Part shown: positions 13,053-22,144 of the stretch, piece by piece | How positions within the stretch are numbered: the first letter of the stretch is position 1 | Layout: each line of letters opens with the position of its first letter | From: Verrucomicrobiales bacterium | GTDB taxonomy: Bacteria > Verrucomicrobiota > Verrucomicrobiia > Verrucomicrobiales > DEV007 | Assembly (NCBI GenBank): GCA_029213195.1 | Contig: JARGNI010000035.1 | Coordinates: forward strand, 21,738-59,087 | Direction of reading: 5' to 3' | Length of the DNA stretch: 37,350 bases | Position numbers and translations under genes: made by a program | Notes under the pieces: model-generated | What the model was told of the DNA's origin: nothing | The model's input: only the letters and a program-made list of their open reading frames with translations | The model's database searches: none

Positions 13053-14108
13053 TCAGTTTCCACCCACCGACACCGCGACCTTGCTGGCGAGGTCTGCGAA
13101 AGCTGCCGAAACCGAGTTCTCTCCGGGGTCTGTCGTGGCGACGGGATTTCCTCGGTCGGCTCGATCTCTCGTTGGGACATCGAGGGGGATTTGCCCAAGG
13201 AGAGGAACCCCCTGCTTCTCGGCTTCCTTCTCTCCTCCGCCTTCTCCGAAAATGAAGTATTTCTTCCCGTGATCGCACTCGAACCAGGCCATGTTTTCGA
13301 CGATCCCGGCGATGGGCACATTGACCTTCTTGAACATGCCGATTCCCTTTCTCGCATCGATCAGGGCCACTTCCTGGGGCGTCGTCACGATGACCGAGGC
13401 GTCGACCGACACCGTCTGCACGATGGTGAGCTGGATATCACCTGTCCCGGGAGGCAGATCGAGAACGAGGTAATCGAGATCTCCCCAGAGGCATTGGCGA
13501 AGAAACTGTTGGGTGTAGCGGGTTGCAAGAGGACCACGGACGATGACGGGAGAATCCTCACTGAGAAGGAAACCCATCGAGATTGCCTTGATGCCGTGGG
13601 CCTCGATCGGAACGATCTCATTCTGTTCCGTAGCCATCGGCTGCTGATCTTCGGCACCCAGCATGAGAGCTACGCTTGGTCCATAAAGATCGCAGTCACA
13701 GAGCCCGACCGAGGCACCCGTCTTGCTCAATGCGATGGCGAGGTTCGTCGCGACCGTCGACTTTCCGACCCCGCCTTTGCCACTGGCAACGGCAATGATC
13801 TTTTTGACGCCGGGGATACTGGACTGACCCGCGGCAGGATTTCCTCCCGTGACCGGCTCGGGTGGGTCTTGAATATCGAAATCGACGTTCACTTTTCCAA
13901 TCCCGGGGATCGCGCTCAGGGTGCTTTCCACTCCTTCGTGGATCTGTCTCGGGATATTCGGATCCCGCGTTGCGATACTGAGCTTGACCACGACATCACT
14001 GCCGTCGGTCTCCACCGCCTTCACCAATCCAAACGACACAATGTCTCGGCTGAATCCCGGATAGTGAACTTCTCCCAATTTTTCGCGGATCAAACTCTCA
14101 GTAATCAT
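13053..14108 (-). CDS. mrp: Mrp/ApbC/NBP35-family Fe-S cluster carrier ATPase
   Basis: The 351-residue protein is a cytoplasmic P-loop scaffold that carries Fe-S clusters to target proteins. Residues 1-80 are the MIP18/DUF59 domain, followed by a Gly/Pro linker and the deviant Walker A motif SGKGGVGKS at about 109-117. Asp-Leu-Pro-Pro-Gly-Thr-Gly-Asp (217-224) is the Walker B and switch region. At the place where most Mrp proteins have Cys-x-x-Cys, this one has Cys278-Asp-His-Gly, so the second cysteine is missing. The cluster would need another ligand or a different dimer geometry. It sits between the Opp-like operon and the sulfatase on the same strand; the 215-base gap upstream shows no clear promoter. 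Confidence 0.92.
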   Translation of the reverse strand: MITESLIREKLGEVHYPGFSRDIVSFGLVKAVETDGSDVVVKLSIATRDPNIPRQIHEGVESTLSAIPGIGKVNVDFDIQDPPEPVTGGNPAAGQSSIPGVKKIIAVASGKGGVGKSTVATNLAIALSKTGASVGLCDCDLYGPSVALMLGAEDQQPMATEQNEIVPIEAHGIKAISMGFLLSEDSPVIVRGPLATRYTQQFLRQCLWGDLDYLVLDLPPGTGDIQLTIVQTVSVDASVIVTTPQEVALIDARKGIGMFKKVNVPIAGIVENMAWFECDHGKKYFIFGEGGGEKEAEKQGVPLLGQIPLDVPTRDRADRGNPVATTDPGENSVSAAFADLASKVAVSVGGN

Positions 14109-14323: not shown

Positions 14324-15253
14324 TCAAGAATCCAATGTCGCGACCCCACCACGAACCGCATTCTCGGCCTCCGCAATGGCTTCTCTCGAAATTCCTCCCA
14401 GCTTTCTCGGCAGGTCGAGAATGGCAGGAGAACATTCGAGAAACTCCTCCGTATACTGGAACTTCGGTTTTGCAATCACCTCGGCAGGGTCCCCTTTCTC
14501 AAGGATTCCTCCCTCGTAGAAAATCGCGACCTGATCCGCAAATTCCTCGACCCCTCGCAGCTTCCCCGAGGTGAAAAGCACCGAGAGATTTTCTTCTTTC
14601 TGAAGATGCACCAACATCTCGAGAAACTGCCTCTCCGTCACTGCGTCAAATTCCAACGTCACCCAGTCGCAGACCAGGAGATCCACCTCAGCGAGGAGGA
14701 CACGCAGCAGAAGCAGTCGTGCGATGTCGCGCATCGAAAGATCCCGAACTGGTGCTTCGAGCAAATGCTCCGGTTCGATGCACCCGACTCGATACAGTTT
14801 CTCGTGGAGATCTTGGGTGCCCAATCGAGAGATCGGGATTCCCCTGGCCGAGGCAAAGTCCCGGAGATTCTGTGCCACCGAGCGCTTCTCGGAAAAGGTC
14901 GCGAGAGCAGGTCTACCCATGTAGAGCGCCTTCGATCGGCAGAGGTTTCGTCGCCGTCGACGGGAAAGGGCAAAGAGAACTTCTCCGTCGAGAATTATTT
15001 CTCCGGACAGTACCTTCGCGCCCGGGACCGAACCTGCCGCCACCCAGCGGCAGAACATGGAAACGCCTGAACCCTGCTCCCCGGCGAGCACGAGGATCTC
15101 CCCACGCGCCAGATCGAGAGAAACCTGACGCAGACAAACTTCTTCATCTTCGTAACGACGAGTTCTCTCCACCGTAAAGTTTTCGACGGAGAGCAGGATA
15201 CCCGTTTCCGACTCGCGGGAACCGGTCTCGGGAGGGACGGATTCGGCATTCAT
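14324..15253 (-). CDS. degenerate OppD/DppD-like ABC ATPase homologue lacking catalytic motifs
   Basis: This 309-residue protein aligns along its whole length with peptide-importer ATPases (OppD/DppD) but has lost every ATPase motif I could check. Walker A reads GEQGSGVSM with Val64 for Lys. The Q-loop Gln is Gly113. The signature LSGGMR reads DLSMR (171-175), lacking the two glycines. Walker B keeps Asp196, but the catalytic Glu is Trp197. The H-loop His is Ser229. The frame is intact with no premature stop, and its start overlaps the permease stop (ATGA), so translation appears maintained. ATP hydrolysis is very unlikely; a structural or regulatory role is inferred. No second ATPase gene follows. 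Confidence 0.85.
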   Translation of the reverse strand: MNAESVPPETGSRESETGILLSVENFTVERTRRYEDEEVCLRQVSLDLARGEILVLAGEQGSGVSMFCRWVAAGSVPGAKVLSGEIILDGEVLFALSRRRRRNLCRSKALYMGRPALATFSEKRSVAQNLRDFASARGIPISRLGTQDLHEKLYRVGCIEPEHLLEAPVRDLSMRDIARLLLLRVLLAEVDLLVCDWVTLEFDAVTERQFLEMLVHLQKEENLSVLFTSGKLRGVEEFADQVAIFYEGGILEKGDPAEVIAKPKFQYTEEFLECSPAILDLPRKLGGISREAIAEAENAVRGGVATLDS

Positions 15254-16158
15254 AGAAAATCGGGGGTTGTGCCTCCCCGCAGCAGGAAATTCGTGACACG
15301 GCCCAGGACCGAGAAGAGGAGGACGATGACACCCGCAAAAAGCCCCGGATAGATCGTCACCCAGGGCGCTTCCAAGAGAGAGCTGGTTCCAGAGGCAACA
15401 AGAACCCCGCAACTCAAGGAACCACCGGTGAATCCGAGAAAGGCCAGAGCCATCTCGGCCAGGATGACCACGGGAAGTAGCGTCGCTACGAGCCCGATGA
15501 GCCGACGGGAGATGACTGGGATCGATCGGGACTTGATGATTCGAGGTCGATGCAGTCCGAGAACCTCTCCCGATATGCGATCGGGTCGACGGTCCTCCTT
15601 CTCAAACCACTCGGCAATCGTCTCGCTGCTATACAAACCAACGACGAGGATGAAAGAGAGAAACAGCAATACCGGTCCGGCACCGCTGCCCCCGAGAACG
15701 ATGCAAAACACCATCATCGCGGGAAGGAGGCGAAGAAATCGGGATACGCTCCGCAAGAGGGTGAAACGGTCCCTGACATGCGCCCCAAATCGACTCCCCC
15801 CATCGAAGACGAAGAGCAGCGAAATGAGAAACCCCAGCAAAACTCCAAGAGTCGAGACCACTACCGCAAACGCACTGCCCTGCGCCATGGCAGCACGACT
15901 CAACACATAGAGATCCGTGCCATCTGCGGTCGTTCCAAAACGATGATCGGCATCCGGGGCCTCCCAGACGGGGCTCTCCGGCAGGGCCGAAAAATCGATC
16001 GGTCGCCCTTGCATCTCCTCGTAGGTTCCGGAGAACAGCCAGGAAAAGAGCAGCCCATAAGCCATGGCCAGGACAATGGCAAATCGAGCCTGCCAGAGCC
16101 GGGCACGGACGAGGGAGTAACCCTTCTTGATCTTCGAAGGTTTTCGATTCTGCATCAT
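15250..16158 (-). CDS. diverged OppC/DppC-like permease subunit
   Basis: The 302-residue membrane protein resembles OppC in order. There is an N-terminal helix (about 25-45), a periplasmic segment with His-Arg-Phe-Gly-Thr that replaces the usual His-x-Leu-Gly-Thr-Asp, then about five helices. A remnant of the ALSFLGLG motif is visible as ALAFLGFTGG. The cytoplasmic EAA coupling region, normally Glu-Ala-Ala-x3-Gly with a basic tail, reads EVLGLHRPRIIKSRSI and is much altered. It overlaps both neighbours by ATGA. The protein probably still forms a membrane complex with the gene upstream, but whether it forms a transport path is unknown. ATG at 16158 was chosen for the overlap. Confidence 0.8.
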   Translation of the reverse strand: MMQNRKPSKIKKGYSLVRARLWQARFAIVLAMAYGLLFSWLFSGTYEEMQGRPIDFSALPESPVWEAPDADHRFGTTADGTDLYVLSRAAMAQGSAFAVVVSTLGVLLGFLISLLFVFDGGSRFGAHVRDRFTLLRSVSRFLRLLPAMMVFCIVLGGSGAGPVLLFLSFILVVGLYSSETIAEWFEKEDRRPDRISGEVLGLHRPRIIKSRSIPVISRRLIGLVATLLPVVILAEMALAFLGFTGGSLSCGVLVASGTSSLLEAPWVTIYPGLFAGVIVLLFSVLGRVTNFLLRGGTTPDFL

Positions 16159-17018
16159 GACTCCCTCCTTTCCAGCCAATACACGAGACACTCACGAACC
16201 AGGGCAAGGATCGCACCGAGGCAAGCGATAAGGAAGGCCGAAAGAAACACCACCGAGGTCGAGCCTTCTCGAATCCCCTTCACGAAGGCGAAACCGATTC
16301 CTCCCTGGTGAAACGCGGTTTCAACGATCACCAGCCCCCCAAGGGTCAGCGGAAATACCCGGTCGAGGAGCTCCGCGAGCTGATGGCGAACCGGCCGACA
16401 AACCTGCTGATAAAAAACTTCCTCGGACGAAGCTCCTAGAAGAAAAAAAGCGCCTCGATGGGTCTCCGCGGCGCGATCGGTCAACACGCTACTGACCGCT
16501 CGAAGGAGCCGGCTCGAGCCAACAAGGATCAACGGAAGAGCAACGACAGAGGCATTCCACCACACGACGAGATCGGGCCCCTGCTCTACCCGGATCTCAT
16601 CGGCAAATCCTGGACGTTCCCAGACGAAATAAGAATAGAGCGAGATCAGGATGACCAGCCAGAATCCAGGGAAACAAGCCGCGATCCCGAAGGGAGCCCG
16701 CAACAGGAAGGAAGCTCCCAAACTCCGAAATCGAGACCCTAGAATGCCCCAGCCGTATCCGATCATCCAGATACCGAGCATCGCTATGAGCAGCGTGGGC
16801 ACCGAGTTCCCAAAGGCACGCCACACCCATGTCACCGCACTCTCTCCCGAGGGAGAAAGCTCCGGAGAAACCGGAGCGGAGAAAGCAAGATTCCAGACGT
16901 GGATCGAATCCTCCCGCAGCCAACCGAATCCGATCTCGATCAGGACGAGAAGCACGGCCGCTATACTGCCGATCCGCAGGGATAGAACGAGGAGTCGGCG
17001 GATCAGGAAATGCATCAT
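16155..17018 (-). CDS. diverged OppB/DppB-like permease subunit
   Basis: The 287-residue protein has the OppB plan: an N-terminal helix (about 8-28), a periplasmic loop, and then five further helices. The segment Gly-Gly-Leu-Val-Ile-Val-Glu-Thr-Ala-Phe matches the Gly-Gly-Ser-x-x-Val-Glu-Thr-x-Phe motif of OppB. The cytoplasmic coupling loop is diverged (RGAFFLLGASSEEVF), keeping only the Gly. The usual long Pro-rich stretch after helix 1 is shortened. Its ATG overlaps the stop of the binding-protein gene and its stop overlaps the next start, so the four genes are tightly coupled. Assignment to the OppB family is safe, transport function is not. Confidence 0.8.
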   Translation of the reverse strand: MMHFLIRRLLVLSLRIGSIAAVLLVLIEIGFGWLREDSIHVWNLAFSAPVSPELSPSGESAVTWVWRAFGNSVPTLLIAMLGIWMIGYGWGILGSRFRSLGASFLLRAPFGIAACFPGFWLVILISLYSYFVWERPGFADEIRVEQGPDLVVWWNASVVALPLILVGSSRLLRAVSSVLTDRAAETHRGAFFLLGASSEEVFYQQVCRPVRHQLAELLDRVFPLTLGGLVIVETAFHQGGIGFAFVKGIREGSTSVVFLSAFLIACLGAILALVRECLVYWLERRES

Positions 17019-19129
17019 CGCAGGTCTCCCGAATCCTCCGGATTGACTCGTTTTTCTCTTACCCACCAAGGTCTTGATCGAGTCACGCCCTCCTGTCCCA
17101 GGAACGGAAACCGTTCCCCTTCGAGATCGACCGAGGGGGGAGGAACCGCCTTGACCGCCCCCTCCCGATACCAGACCAAGCGCCCCGATTCAGCCAGAAA
17201 GAGACACGGCTGAAGCTCTATGATCCGGTCTTGAAGAGTCTTCGCAGCCTCCTGCACCTCCTCCCTCGAGTGCGAATCACGGAGAGTTTCGATCGCTTCA
17301 TCGATCCCCGGATCTGCGAGCCCGAATAGATTCGTCCCCCCTTCGCCACCACCTTGAGAATGAAAGGAGCGATACCGATCCCTCCCTTTCGGAATCTCCC
17401 AACTCAGGAGAATAGCTCCGAATCTGCGAGGCAGGAGCCGCTCCATCAAGATCGATGACAAGGGAAGTTCTTCGATTTTCACTTGGATGCCCAGGGCTTG
17501 CCACTGACTCGCGAGGGAAGCCGCGAGAAATCCCTGGTGAGCGTTCTGCTGGTTCACGAGCAGTTCGATCTCGAGGGGGTTTCCCTCCTGATCTCGTCGA
17601 ATTCCTCGAGCTTCGTCGTATCGGAATCCGAGTTCATCGAGTCGATCCGCTGCTGCTGCCACATCGTATCTCCAGAGTGCCAGCGGCCCGGGATCCCAAG
17701 AGTGCCCTGGGCGAAAAAGACCGCGAACCGGCTGGAGAAAGGAATCACTCTCCTCCCTCGTCCACGCCGAGGGATCGACCGCTTCGGCCAGAGCCACACG
17801 AAAATCCTTTTCCGAATACGGTTCCTGGTCCCGGTTCCAAACCACAAAATGTTGAAAGCGCGAAACACTTTTCGCTTTCTCCACTTCTCCGGGATTTCGC
17901 TGAGCCCAGAGAACGAACCGCTCATCGGGCACGAGCGCATCGATCCGATAGGAACGCAAGGCGAGCAGCTTGGACTCGAGGGAATCGAATCTCCGGTAGA
18001 CGAGATCTTCCTGCTCGGGAATCCCCAGCCAGTAGGCCTCATTGGCGCGGAGCCTGATCCCCCCATCACGGAAACGCTCCATGACCTGATAGGGACCCGT
18101 ACCCGTCGGGGAAACCTGGAACGTCGCCCAGGCTTCGCAAGACTCCATGCCTTCGAATCGGTGCCGGGGAACGATGGGCAATTGTTCCCAGCATTCGAGC
18201 ATCAACTCGGGCGAGGGCAGAGACTTGAGGAGGAATCGAACCTCGAACCGATTTCGAAGGTCGATACTTTCCGCAAACCAGAAGAGCCCTCTCAAGGGAG
18301 AATTGGCATCGTCCCCCGCAAACTTGTCGAGGCTGAAGAGGACATCCTCGGCGGTCAGTTTCTCCCCATCGTGCCAGAAAACATCGTCGCGAAAGCGAAA
18401 GATCGCTTCCCGGGCGAGAAAGTGGCTCTGCTCGCCCTGCCGCTCGACCCGAGGATTCAGATCCGAGTTGGAATCCAGATACAAGCCGAGTTCCTCGAGA
18501 AACGGGTCGATGTCCCCATCGAGAAAGAGCATCGCCTGCCGGTCATCGTCAAAATCGATCATCCGAATTCTCTTCTTCTCAATCGATGAGGTCAGGAAAG
18601 CTTCCAGGAAGGTCTCGATCGAGTGATCGACCGTGAGCACCACCACCTTGAAATTCGCCAGCTGCTCCGGAGGGATCTGGTCGAGAAACTCTTTTTCGAT
18701 GCTCTCGGCAAAATCGGGAAAGGTCAGGGTCAGGATTTCCTGCTCTCGGTCGCAGTTTGCCAGCGACTGCCGTGCCCCTGGACGGTATTCTCCGGAACGA
18801 ATCCGGGCCTCGACTTCTCCGGCATCCTCTTCACTCGCACAATGCAGGGTGACAATGGTCCGAAACTGCCACGAATCGAGCAGATGAGGCTGAAGTTTGA
18901 AGTCGGCATCCCGAACCAGCACGGGATCGAAGACAAGATCCCTGATTTCTCGAGTCACCCCTTCCTCGGCGCCGAAGGGAGAAAGGGACCCGATCGGCTC
19001 CTGGATGGCCGTGACCAAGGAACCCCCGGGAGGTGGGAGTTCCAGTCGCTCGACTTCCCGGACCAGCAGGAACCCGCCAAATCCCAGTGCCAGGGGCATG
19101 AGATAAGCGAGGTTTCGCAGCCAGAACAT
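17015..19129 (-). CDS. membrane-anchored family 5 solute-binding protein with insertion
   Basis: The 704-residue protein is an OppA/DppA-type binding protein. Recognisable segments are SLVTAIQEP near 37, FRFRDDVFWHDGEKLTAEDV (245-264), the Thr-Gly-Thr-Gly-Pro-Tyr motif in the central part and the usual C-terminal lobe. Two features are unusual. The N-terminus (about 5-24) is a hydrophobic anchor with no lipobox and no clear cleavage site, so it probably stays as a membrane helix. Residues about 88-242 are an insertion of roughly 150 residues, rich in acidic residues, between two strands that are adjacent in ordinary family members. ATG at 19129 lies eight bases after a good -10 element, so the transcript may be nearly leaderless; an in-frame Met at residue 11 is an alternative. 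Confidence 0.85.
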   Translation of the reverse strand: MFWLRNLAYLMPLALGFGGFLLVREVERLELPPPGGSLVTAIQEPIGSLSPFGAEEGVTREIRDLVFDPVLVRDADFKLQPHLLDSWQFRTIVTLHCASEEDAGEVEARIRSGEYRPGARQSLANCDREQEILTLTFPDFAESIEKEFLDQIPPEQLANFKVVVLTVDHSIETFLEAFLTSSIEKKRIRMIDFDDDRQAMLFLDGDIDPFLEELGLYLDSNSDLNPRVERQGEQSHFLAREAIFRFRDDVFWHDGEKLTAEDVLFSLDKFAGDDANSPLRGLFWFAESIDLRNRFEVRFLLKSLPSPELMLECWEQLPIVPRHRFEGMESCEAWATFQVSPTGTGPYQVMERFRDGGIRLRANEAYWLGIPEQEDLVYRRFDSLESKLLALRSYRIDALVPDERFVLWAQRNPGEVEKAKSVSRFQHFVVWNRDQEPYSEKDFRVALAEAVDPSAWTREESDSFLQPVRGLFRPGHSWDPGPLALWRYDVAAAADRLDELGFRYDEARGIRRDQEGNPLEIELLVNQQNAHQGFLAASLASQWQALGIQVKIEELPLSSILMERLLPRRFGAILLSWEIPKGRDRYRSFHSQGGGEGGTNLFGLADPGIDEAIETLRDSHSREEVQEAAKTLQDRIIELQPCLFLAESGRLVWYREGAVKAVPPPSVDLEGERFPFLGQEGVTRSRPWWVREKRVNPEDSGDLR

Positions 19130-19203: not shown

Positions 19204-20547
19204 TCAGTTGAGATCGAGACATTTCAAGGTGTCCTGACCACGAACGATAAGGTGGCCTCGCGAAAGCGCCATGGGGGACCAGAATTTGAAATCGGGCATC
19301 TTGATGACGTCCCGCCCTTCCTGCTTGGCGATCTGTTCGTCGACTTCCGGCTTTTTGCCAAAGGCATCGAAGAATCCCACTTCCTGGTATCCCTCCGGAG
19401 AAGGTTTCACCACGCGCAGGTAGCCGACCTCGCCATCCTGGATAAGAAGATGTCCGTCGACGAGGATCATGTTGCCGCGCCCCATGAAGGGTTGATCACC
19501 GGTATGCCACTTGATGGTTCCATCGAAATCCATGCACATGAGGCCACCCGTTTTCCGAGCTTCTCCCTTGTGGTTCGCATTTTCGTTGGCGAGGAAATAG
19601 ATGTGTTCGTCGATCACGAAAGGAGGATGGACCTGGGTCCCCTGCTCCATATCGAAGACTTTCTCGACCCCCCAGGCGCTTCCGTCCTTCTCGACTCGAA
19701 CCATGCAGCTTCCGTTGCCGTAGCCGCCGGTCAGAAAGACCAACTCCTCCGTCACCTTGGTGGGAAATGGGATCGGGATCTTGTTGAAATAGAGATCGGT
19801 GCTCCAGAGCACGTCACCGGACTGCGGATCGACACTGATCGTCGTTCCGACTCCTCCGTCGCCATCTCGCTTGGTCGCGATAAAGACACACTGCTCTACC
19901 CCTTGCAGGTTCATCACCACCGGAGTGGAGTGCGAGTCACCGAAGGGAGAAGTCTCCCAGAGAACCTTTCCGGTCTTCTTATCGAATCCGACAAGCCCCA
20001 CGGTCTCGCTCATCGCGGGAACGATGAGAATGTCTCCCACCACGACCGGACTTTGTGCCCAGCCCCACTTCGGCGTGCCCACTTCGACCTCGTATTTTTC
20101 CCGCATCGGGACCATCCAGTCCGCTTCGTGGGTCTCCCGATTGATCCGAAAGACCTGTCCGAAACCGCTGATGAAATAAACCGCATCTTCTTCAATGAGG
20201 GGAACCCCACGGCTTCCGTGGAAAGAAAGCTTTCCGGGAAAATCGAAAGAGAATGACCATTTTTCCGCACCATCCTTCAGGGAGAGGCAAAGCAGCTTGT
20301 CCCGCTCTTCGAAATCGCGATCCACGAGGAAAACCTCGTCCCCCACGATGGCGGCTCCGCCAAATCCTTCGTTGAGCTCTTTCTCCCACAGAAGCTTGGG
20401 AGGATTTTTCTCCCAGCCATCGAGATTCAGTTCGGTTTCATCGGAAATCCCGATGCGATGCGGCCCTTGGAAATTCGCCCAGTCGCCAGCGACGACGAAG
20501 GTGGAAAAGCCGCAGAGGAGAAGGAAGGTCAAGCCGATGGATTTCAT
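19204..20547 (-). CDS. secreted PQQ-like beta-propeller repeat protein
   Basis: The 447-residue protein has a signal peptide (cleavage near Ala21-Gly22) followed by GDWANFQGPHRIGISDE, the typical entry to outer-membrane or periplasmic PQQ-like beta-propellers of Verrucomicrobiota and Planctomycetota. Repeated Trp-containing blades such as GKVLWE, GDVLWS and GTIKWH occur throughout. No dehydrogenase catalytic residues are recognised, so a binding or scaffold role is more likely than an enzyme. ATG at 20547 starts the signal peptide; GTG and TTG codons upstream are less likely. It lies 78 bases downstream of rpoN on the same strand. Confidence 0.88.
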   Translation of the reverse strand: MKSIGLTFLLLCGFSTFVVAGDWANFQGPHRIGISDETELNLDGWEKNPPKLLWEKELNEGFGGAAIVGDEVFLVDRDFEERDKLLCLSLKDGAEKWSFSFDFPGKLSFHGSRGVPLIEEDAVYFISGFGQVFRINRETHEADWMVPMREKYEVEVGTPKWGWAQSPVVVGDILIVPAMSETVGLVGFDKKTGKVLWETSPFGDSHSTPVVMNLQGVEQCVFIATKRDGDGGVGTTISVDPQSGDVLWSTDLYFNKIPIPFPTKVTEELVFLTGGYGNGSCMVRVEKDGSAWGVEKVFDMEQGTQVHPPFVIDEHIYFLANENANHKGEARKTGGLMCMDFDGTIKWHTGDQPFMGRGNMILVDGHLLIQDGEVGYLRVVKPSPEGYQEVGFFDAFGKKPEVDEQIAKQEGRDVIKMPDFKFWSPMALSRGHLIVRGQDTLKCLDLN

Positions 20548-20591
20548 GGCATTTACGAGAACGAAATCCGCCATCTTTTCAAATCCGCAAT

Positions 20592-20611
20592 CGTGTCCAC
20601 TTTGTGACACG
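20592..20611. promoter_or_regulatory. 6-bp inverted repeat between rpoN and the beta-propeller gene
   Basis: CGTGTC (20592-20597) and GACACG (20606-20611) flank eight bases, upstream of the beta-propeller start on the minus strand. It could be an operator or a weak hairpin; no T-tract follows. Confidence 0.25.
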
Positions 20612-20625
20612 CAAGCCCCCTCACC

Positions 20626-22035
20626 TCAGTAGCTGCGCCGCATGTGGCTCGGCAGGATGTGGAGTTCCTCGCGATACTTGGCAACGGTACGTCGAGCGAT
20701 CTTCACCCCGGCTTTTTCCAACTCTTCGACGAGTTTCTGATCGCTGAAAGGCTTCTTCGGATTCTCATTGTGAATCAAGTCGGCAAGCGTCTGTTTCACG
20801 GAAGTATTCGACAAGGTCTCCCCCGACTCCGTCTCGTAGCCGGTGGTGAAGAAATACTTCATCTCGAACACCCCGTGAGGCGTCTCAATGTACTTGCCGG
20901 AAACCGCGCGGCTCACGGTGGTCTCGTGCACCCCGACCTCGTCGGCAATCTGGGCCATGTTCATCGGCTTCAGCTTGGAAGGGCCGTGAGAAAGAAACTC
21001 GCCCTGCCTCTTCACGATCTCGGTGGCGATGGACTTGATCGTCTGCTGACGCTGATGGATGCTCTTAATCAGAAATTTTCCGGCCCGAATCTTGTCCCGA
21101 ATGTAGGTCCGCGCCTCACGGCTGCTTCCCCCTGCCATCATATCCTTGTAGGCATTGCTGATGCGGAGACGGGGAATCTGCTCGTTGTGCATCGAAACCA
21201 CCCACTCTGTGCCGATTCTTTCCACGGTCACATCGGGAGTCACATACGTGTTGTTGTCACCACCGAAACGACTTCCCGGTCGTGGATCGAGAGAAGCAAT
21301 GAACTCCGCAGCATGAGTGATCTGTTCCGGGGACACACTCAGCTTCTTCGCGACCTGGGGATATCGCTTCCGAGCAAGGTCGTCGAGATGGTGATCGATG
21401 ATCCGATACTCGAGGCTGTGATGTTTTCCCATGCGCTCCAGCTGGATGAGCAAACAATCCCGAAGATCCAGGGCCCCCACTCCAACCGGATCGAAGGACT
21501 GAACGAGAATCTTCGCTTCTTCCAATTCCTCAAGCGGGATTCCGAGATCAAAGCTCATTTCTTCGAGATCGACCTTGAGAAACCCCTGTTCATCGATATT
21601 TCCAATCAAGGTCTGCGCGATGTCTTCTACCTCTTTAGGAACATCCGAAACGTGGAGCTGGTTCAACAAATGCTCCTGCAGGGTGATCGGCTCCACGATG
21701 GAATCCATCACGAACTGATGCTTTTCATCGGCGTCGTCGCGTTTCGGGGACGCGACCCGGCTCTGCGACATGTATTCCCGCCATTCTTCATCGAGACGAG
21801 AAAGCTCAGCAAATTCCTTGTCGAATTCCTCCTCCTCGGAAGGGCTCGTAGCATCGTCGAGAGAAACATCGGTCGACTCTTCTTCCAGGGTCGGATTCGC
21901 AACGAGCTCCTCCTGGATCAAATGCTGCAATTCCAAAGTCGGAGTCTGCAGGAGCTGTAAGCTCTGCTGCATCTGCGGTGCAATCGTCTGCTGCTGGAGC
22001 AGAGACTGCGACTGATCAAAACGTTGCTCGGGCAT
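20626..22035 (-). CDS. rpoN: RNA polymerase sigma-54 factor
   Basis: The 469-residue protein directs RNA polymerase to -24/-12 promoters and needs an AAA+ activator. The Gln-rich region I is at the N-terminus (about 8-45), followed by an acidic region II, the core-binding region, a helix-turn-helix (HETTVSRAVSGKYIETPHG) and the RpoN box ARRTVAKYRE (447-456). All parts are complete. ATG at 22035 is chosen because the TTG at 22050 adds only a short polar extension before region I. No -24/-12 sequence was found in this window with the correct spacing, so its targets appear to lie elsewhere. Confidence 0.97.
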   Translation of the reverse strand: MPEQRFDQSQSLLQQQTIAPQMQQSLQLLQTPTLELQHLIQEELVANPTLEEESTDVSLDDATSPSEEEEFDKEFAELSRLDEEWREYMSQSRVASPKRDDADEKHQFVMDSIVEPITLQEHLLNQLHVSDVPKEVEDIAQTLIGNIDEQGFLKVDLEEMSFDLGIPLEELEEAKILVQSFDPVGVGALDLRDCLLIQLERMGKHHSLEYRIIDHHLDDLARKRYPQVAKKLSVSPEQITHAAEFIASLDPRPGSRFGGDNNTYVTPDVTVERIGTEWVVSMHNEQIPRLRISNAYKDMMAGGSSREARTYIRDKIRAGKFLIKSIHQRQQTIKSIATEIVKRQGEFLSHGPSKLKPMNMAQIADEVGVHETTVSRAVSGKYIETPHGVFEMKYFFTTGYETESGETLSNTSVKQTLADLIHNENPKKPFSDQKLVEELEKAGVKIARRTVAKYREELHILPSHMRRSY

Positions 22036-22144
22036 AAAATTGCTCGCCAACTCGGGGGCGAGATCTCACGCTAGCACATTTCCTGCCAGCAAGAGCAAGA
22101 AAATGAAATTTTGTCTCTTCCCACCGTTTCGGGCTCGGATTTCC

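Follow-up and report, generated by a model that had tools for sequence, protein, structure and literature searches.

The last gene of an Opp/Dpp-type operon in a Verrucomicrobiales genome encodes an ABC ATPase that, as its motifs indicate, is very probably catalytically dead and nevertheless retained, and we lean towards the interpretation that this subunit has a structural role in a complex of the Opp/Dpp type. It is not one odd gene: the degenerate form is carried by eight genera of one Verrucomicrobiota family (f1), among which the residues kept and lost point to a shared state with stepwise loss. The gene lies in the window, that is, the whole stretch of 37,350 nucleotides that was analysed, and on the minus strand the order from 22050 to 13053 is rpoN, a BamB/PQQ-repeat protein, an SBP_bac_5 substrate-binding protein (SBP), two Opp-type permeases, the ATPase-like protein and Mrp/ApbC:

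20626..22050, minus strand: rpoN (sigma-54), the synteny marker on the upstream side, present at 9 further loci of the genus.
19204..20610, minus strand: BamB/PQQ-repeat-like protein, directly upstream of the SBP; a further synteny marker, which accompanies the operon at 11 more loci of the genus.
17015..19129, minus strand: substrate-binding protein, SBP_bac_5, 704 aa, with a predicted N-terminal helix and a NikZ/AppA/DppA-type fold.
16155..17018, minus strand: permease 1 (TM1), OppB/DppB-like, PF00528, with an ATGA overlap with the SBP stop and an eroded coupling loop.
15250..16158, minus strand: permease 2 (TM2), OppC/DppC-like, with ATG at 16158 (GTG at 16161 is possible too) and an ATGA overlap at both ends.
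14324..15253, minus strand: pseudo-ATPase (NBD; P0001), OppD/DppD-like ABC fold, 309 aa, without the Walker A Lys, Q-loop Gln, signature GG, catalytic Glu and H-loop His.
13053..14108, minus strand: Mrp/ApbC Fe-S carrier, the synteny marker on the downstream side, present at 17 further loci of the genus and at the two g20 loci.

The ATPase-like frame is real and open, with its ATG at 15253 and its stop at 14324, and three ATGA overlaps (17018-17015, 16158-16155 and 15253-15250) join the four ABC genes in the order SBP-permease-permease-ATPase; at the last of them the start of the ATPase-like gene overlaps the stop of the preceding permease, and the coordinates bear out the intact frame and ATGA overlaps that had been claimed in a first-pass annotation of this DNA. 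The SBP_bac_5 protein and the two OppB/OppC-like permeases are the parts of an Opp/Dpp-type importer, for which peptides or metal chelates would be candidate substrates and ATP-driven import the expected activity. Permease 2 had no Pfam match at E<=0.1 and matched OppC models (best E=1.9e-14) under their cut-offs; its coupling loop is partly eroded and a C-terminal DppC-like stretch is retained. No second ATPase was found among the window genes from rpoN to Mrp, and a heterodimer with a partner from the same operon was rejected for this reason. A promoter scan of the sequence returned 2 sites versus 2.1 expected, and 13 terminators versus 9.4 expected. In genera g1 and g20, Mrp/ApbC (13053-14108; also in L050 and L052) is found on the downstream side of the pseudo-ATPase, and no neighbour matching Mrp, PQQ or rpoN was found in the L121-L140 stretches around canonical class-level operons.

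The pseudo-ATPase matched Pfam ABC_tran (PF00005, E=6e-07, over its cut-off) and, across most of its length, solved DppD/OppD chains; its best NCBIfam models were Opp/Nik/Cnt-type ATPases, under their curated cut-offs. Its AlphaFold model (AF2; pLDDT 92.1, pTM 0.88, from an alignment of 41 sequences) resembled E. coli OppD (8z21_C; Z 29.7, 287 residues, 3.3 A) and M. tuberculosis DppD (8wd9_D; Z 29.0). The ABC fold together with the sequence relation indicates OppD/DppD-type descent, in agreement with the alignment to OppD/DppD that had been proposed. Walker A reads GEQGSGVS, with Lys64 replaced by Val; the signature LSGGM has become LSMRD (LSMRDI), with Gly174 changed to Met and Gly175 to Arg; and Walker B reads LLVCDW, in which Glu197 is replaced by Trp and Asp196 is retained, as is Asp203 of the D-loop. 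Val64, which also held in the alignment with relatives, the loss of both signature glycines (Met174-Arg175) and Trp197 had all been correctly called by the first-pass annotation. It was also right that the Q-loop Gln and the H-loop His are gone, although its residue numbers need correction: in the alignment with relatives, Arg114 fills the Q-loop column (anchoring on the Pro that follows gives Gly113), and the H-loop column holds Gly230 instead of Ser229. Residues 112-116 of the window protein include no Gln, and residues 228-231 no His. Five features of a functional ATPase, namely the Walker A Lys, signature GG, Q-loop Gln, catalytic Glu and H-loop His, are absent from it.

The SBP was found in 25 of the 33 genomes of the genus that were searched. 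The ATPases read from f1 (n=38) were divided between this genus (23, of which 22 are full length) and seven others (15; g15, g16, g17, g20, g21, g22 and g26); G002 and G008 have the SBP and yielded no ATPase row. Thirty-seven of the frames are full length and open, and one (L041) is cut by the contig end and was counted only where letters exist. The signature GG was kept in none of the 38, the Q-loop Gln in three (all g16), the H-loop His in 4 of 37 and the catalytic Glu in 22 of 37. The Walker A Lys was kept in 31/38 and lost in 7/38 including the window, the Walker B Asp was kept in 27/37 and the D-loop Asp in 35/37. In contrast, every canonical operon homologue sampled (19/19) keeps all 14 columns tested; these loci come from four f4 genomes, one f5 genome, L043 (genus g2 of f1) and 13 genomes from other families of the class. 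With all 14 columns kept in 19/19 canonical copies and the signature GG missing from 38/38 family copies, chance is excluded for the motif loss. Orthologues with intact motifs had been named in advance as evidence that would speak against a selected, non-hydrolysing subunit; they do occur, in other families and at L043, whereas every copy read in the eight genera is degenerate.

An SBP match was present in 49 f4 genomes, four of which were read, and in 44 genomes from outside the order, 20 of which were fetched; seven of these 20 (L129-L132 and L138-L140) were without a homologous ATPase in the stretch and stand outside the 19. L046, L047, L048 and L049 were excluded as other systems, as were the extra ATPases in L058, L065, L121 and L130. 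L046 (6889-7749, in G053) is an intact ATPase of the same kind away from such an operon, beside genes that by eye resemble RND efflux; no SBP or permease match was found in its stretch. A search of the family genomes gave no SBP match in many other genera of f1. In the named collection, 31 of the 33 loci found with the SBP alignment were metagenome-assembled genomes titled Verrucomicrobiales, Akkermansiaceae, Verrucomicrobiaceae, Verrucomicrobiia or Verrucomicrobiota, and the two weak matches, L101 and L102, bear other titles.

In the SBP tree, 37 degenerate rows fell on one side of a branch and 18 intact rows on the other (SH-aLRT 90, not starred), which places the signature loss once, with a single apparent origin at that support. 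At least four changes of the Walker A Lys were needed on an SBP tree of 43 rows, and this residue appears to have changed after the single origin of motif loss. The larger SBP tree was rooted on 13 canonical class-level operons, L042 having been dropped for its very long branch; by path, the nearest SBP relative of the window in this tree was L041. The window SBP had an end branch of 1.12 versus a median of 0.3. Those of the other loci that lost the Lys were 0.90 (L045), 0.54 (L035 and L041), 0.34 (L039) and 0.30 (L059/L061), and long end branches were also seen in Lys keepers of other genera (L065, 1.55; L058, 1.06).

Pairwise dN/dS was calculated by NG86 over all 703 pairs of degenerate NBDs, and the ten pairs with at least 70% identity gave 0.08-0.20. 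Values as high as 0.90 occurred in the degenerate pairs with pS<0.65 (n=90), those above 0.39 all coming from pairs under 63% identity, in which codon bias probably lowers dS in this simple method. The SBP and permeases gave a range similar to that of the ATPase in 20 pairs picked by eye (17 degenerate and 3 canonical, with values printed as 0.00 at saturated pS being undefined). In the three canonical pairs the ATPase was far more conserved than the SBP (84/59, 73/42 and 74/36% identity), whereas in close degenerate pairs its identity was about equal to or under that of the SBP (for example, 79/87 for L032/L033 and 81/83 for L036/L038); since the ATPase is no more conserved than the SBP in degenerate pairs, the catalytic constraint is gone and ordinary purifying selection remains. 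At 26 columns, among them the H-loop His column (Gly here) and some in a C-terminal helix, at least 85% of the genus shares one residue that differs from the commonest canonical residue, and the window shares 21 of these residues and departs from five. The possibility that the losses are concentrated in the nucleotide site was rejected: 16 conserved columns were kept and 19 lost there, versus 28 kept and 35 lost elsewhere (Fisher p=1.0).

We considered as an unlikely but serious rival that the transporter has been useless since the base of the family and is decaying slowly, with weak selection on folding or non-toxicity, and that the window copy is at a late stage. In the window the flanking genes are ordinary (median identity, window/others: rpoN 81/81, PQQ 71/69, Mrp 80/80, sulfatase 69/69), whereas the ABC genes are more diverged (SBP 42/53, TM1 37/52, TM2 41/51, NBD 37/44); all four (14324-19129) are accelerated as a block and are among the fastest evolving. 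Long SBP end branches in several of the Lys losers (the window, L045 and L035/L041), although not in all, and the loss by the permeases of most canonical conserved columns agree with decay, and relaxation in the window lineage is a serious rival. On the other hand, omega=1 on the window branch was disfavoured (2dlnL 22.2 for the ATPase, with dS saturated); these branch omegas come from our own code with four taxa per gene and are indicative, the window branch of NBD and TM2 being at the bound. As a rough estimate, neutrality of just the excess changes would have produced about 8.8 stops across the four window genes, and none is present. Retention of the SBP in 25/33 genomes of the genus, the 37 full-length open ATPase frames plus the one cut by a contig end, the low dN/dS in the ten closest pairs and the genus-wide residues unlike the canonical ones also speak against slow decay. 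With its open frame, and with dN/dS well below 1 in close pairs of its relatives, the window copy does not look like a plain pseudogene.

The SBP is absent from 8/33 genomes of the genus, so that it is dispensable, which speaks against a retained function. Three of the eight have readable empty sites (G010, G013 and G020) and serve as a natural control; in G029 and G023 the flanking genes are on different contigs, and G015, G017 and G022 are 52-77% complete. In G010, G013 and G020, which are 3.5-Mb genomes, PQQ and Mrp lie 0.45-0.81 kb apart and the operon is missing. Two of the three gaps hold ATPase scraps detected by tblastn, one with an internal stop, and the third holds a weak ATPase trace by eye. 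The scraps in L116 (G020) and L117 (G013) are C-terminal, L115 being the site in G010, and L117 also has a stretch like the SBP start (MFWLR) just before them, as if a deletion had joined the start of the SBP to the end of the ATPase. The rpoN genes of these genomes share 91-95% identity with that of G031 (L041), which retains the operon. Where these genomes gave the operon up it fell apart, which as a control counts in favour of a retained subunit elsewhere, although the deletions as such agree with slow decay. Because the four ABC genes of the window have diverged and close relatives of L041 have lost theirs, the window copy may itself be heading for loss. The suggestion of the first-pass annotation that a non-hydrolysing subunit is under selection thus finds support in the family, in open frames, low dN/dS and shared residues, and is less secure for the window copy, because all four of its ABC genes rank with the fastest evolving. 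The comparison of orthologues and dN/dS that had been proposed alongside it returned degenerate orthologues in eight genera and low dN/dS in close pairs.

The other parts of the operon have changed to different degrees. Counting the columns that are invariant in 13 canonical copies and kept by at least half of f1 (g15 loci left out), we obtained 69/125 for the SBP, 45/115 for the NBD, 25/102 for TM1 and 27/112 for TM2, which makes the binding protein the least changed part. The window SBP model (pLDDT 85) is closest in fold to the NikZ/AppA/DppA type (Z 30.2 to 4oet, and 26.5-28.4 to DppA/AppA entries), and a helix is predicted at residues 2-30 of the N terminus (P0004 numbering, with one extra leading residue). 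In length this protein exceeds the solved SBPs that it matches by about 200 residues, and its Pfam match starts at residue 243. Erosion of the coupling loops, whose canonical forms are EDYIRTARAKG and EYVRAARxLGQ, is seen in f1, to a lesser degree in L060, and also in L063, another early branch: the Gly is kept, the LP of permease 2 is kept in most rows shown, and the flanking A/R residues are lost, so that the EAA-type loop is partly eroded, unlike in the canonical copies shown. In L059 and L061 (g15), both permease models match a single ORF of 617-632 aa; L042, L043, L044, L067 and L068 have a single ORF of 538-582 aa between SBP and ATPase, for which a fusion is suggested by its length. The expression 'peptide importer with a dead subunit' understates the case, as the permease coupling loops and most conserved columns are gone too.

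We return to the dead ATPase as a structural part of the complex. As for how it would work, a receptor or scaffold mechanism is a tentative proposal, preferred because the membrane-anchored binding protein is the best preserved part; conservation of the SBP is what would speak for a receptor role. Without signature glycines no ATP sandwich should form, so the complex would be unable to run an import cycle and should stay in a resting, inward-facing state. E. coli DppBCDF is inactive and rests inward-facing without DppA; once DppA is present, DppD and DppF are glued together by two ATP analogues and the complex is outward-facing (PMC12136057). At the inner membrane the assembly described here would most likely act as a receptor for a ligand or as a scaffold, in which the pseudo-ATPase holds the permeases and perhaps relays a binding signal to a cytosolic partner. 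An equally tentative and more specific history would have a complete type I importer become such a fuel-free receptor or scaffold in a single event, ancestral to most of the family: the SBP, the permeases and the ATPase fold would have persisted, while the motor and the coupling parts were taken down stepwise, beginning with the signature.

A working importer powered by a DppD/DppF-type ATPase encoded elsewhere, with the pseudo-ATPase as heterodimer half or assembly factor, is improbable. Two canonical D/F pairs do exist in the genome (C2 and C89), both with their motifs intact, and no other close canonical candidate was found; the Walker A Lys is kept in 31/38 copies; and one dead catalytic Glu would be tolerable, since in E. 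coli single catalytic-Glu mutants of DppD or DppF keep evident ATPase activity and the double mutant is inactive (PMC12136057). By this analogy, one lost Glu alone would not be decisive. However, loss of signature and Walker residues in one chain would leave no complete site even with a normal ATPase as partner, unlike in known heterodimers, and the permease coupling loops are altered. A search of seven genomes with a canonical homologue as query showed no close orphan canonical ATPase: all 28 matches at E<=3e-47 were adjacent or fused D/F pairs, and a close orphan replacement was rejected. Of the six weaker matches, three were the genomes' own pseudo-operon ATPases and three, which could be counted for this alternative, were more distant proteins outside the operon (G000:C47, G024:C167 and G026:C21; 31-37% identity). 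Furthermore, 10 of the 11 class-level loci (of 13) with at least 1.3 kb read downstream had no second ATPase there, and the eleventh, L121, had one of another type 0.75 kb further on; the ancestral operon therefore probably had one ATPase gene, that is, a homodimer.

An ATP-binding switch, in which binding without hydrolysis gates the permeases or signals the energy state, is still harder to credit. The Walker A Lys (31/38), Walker B Asp (27/37) and D-loop Asp (35/37) are widely kept, as it would predict, but the Lys is lost in 7/38 including the window, with at least four changes on the SBP tree, and the ATP-clamping signature is gone wherever it was read; the window species is therefore unlikely to depend on nucleotide binding. 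Finally, the genomes are drafts and the named records metagenome-assembled, yet a sequencing, assembly or frame artefact can practically be dismissed, as the same losses occur in differently named assemblies and one frameshift in an open frame cannot alter five motifs.

ABC importers are defined by ATP-driven transport. If the dead ATPase is indeed retained as a structural part, eight genera have preserved a whole four-gene importer beyond the loss of its ATP sites, which would show that the architecture is usable without its motor. The family would offer graded intermediates for dissecting motif function, with the signature gone everywhere and the His, Glu and Lys kept in some members. It would also be a warning that such operons in metagenomes should not be annotated as peptide ABC transporters. 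Among the titles and abstract beginnings listed, a scope outside which preprints and most subscription journals lie, no fully degenerate ABC importer or importer family without a possible site was described.

The system has the same kinds of subunits and folds as E. coli DppBCDF/DppA and OppBCDF and M. tuberculosis DppABCD and OppABCD; unlike these, whose ATPases are catalytic, it has a single ATPase gene with lost motifs and altered coupling loops. It also resembles the canonical class operon (L121-L128 and L133-L137), with which it shares the order SBP-TM1-TM2-NBD, a long SBP and homology in all four genes; canonical operons L044, L067 and L068 have one permease ORF of 540-582 aa, and the canonical ATPase, unlike the one described here, is intact in 19/19 loci read. 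Heterodimeric ABC transporters with a degenerate site keep one canonical site. In the window chain both halves of the site are lost, which would leave none complete in a homodimer or, by extension, in a mixed dimer, and hence, unlike in these heterodimers, no complete site should form in any pairing. Degenerate sites in heterodimers with one canonical site are well known, and BmrCD, TM287/288 and MsRv1273c/72c (PMC4046567, PMC5216877 and PMC12038006) likewise tolerate and keep a loss of catalytic residues, the abstract for MsRv1273c/72c (PMC12038006) naming one catalytically impaired site. Among the structural matches of the window SBP was LpqW (2grv; Z 26.1), which has the SBP_bac_5 fold. LpqW is a non-transport regulator of lipoglycan synthesis and a stand-alone lipoprotein; unlike LpqW, the system described here retains its permeases and the ATPase fold.
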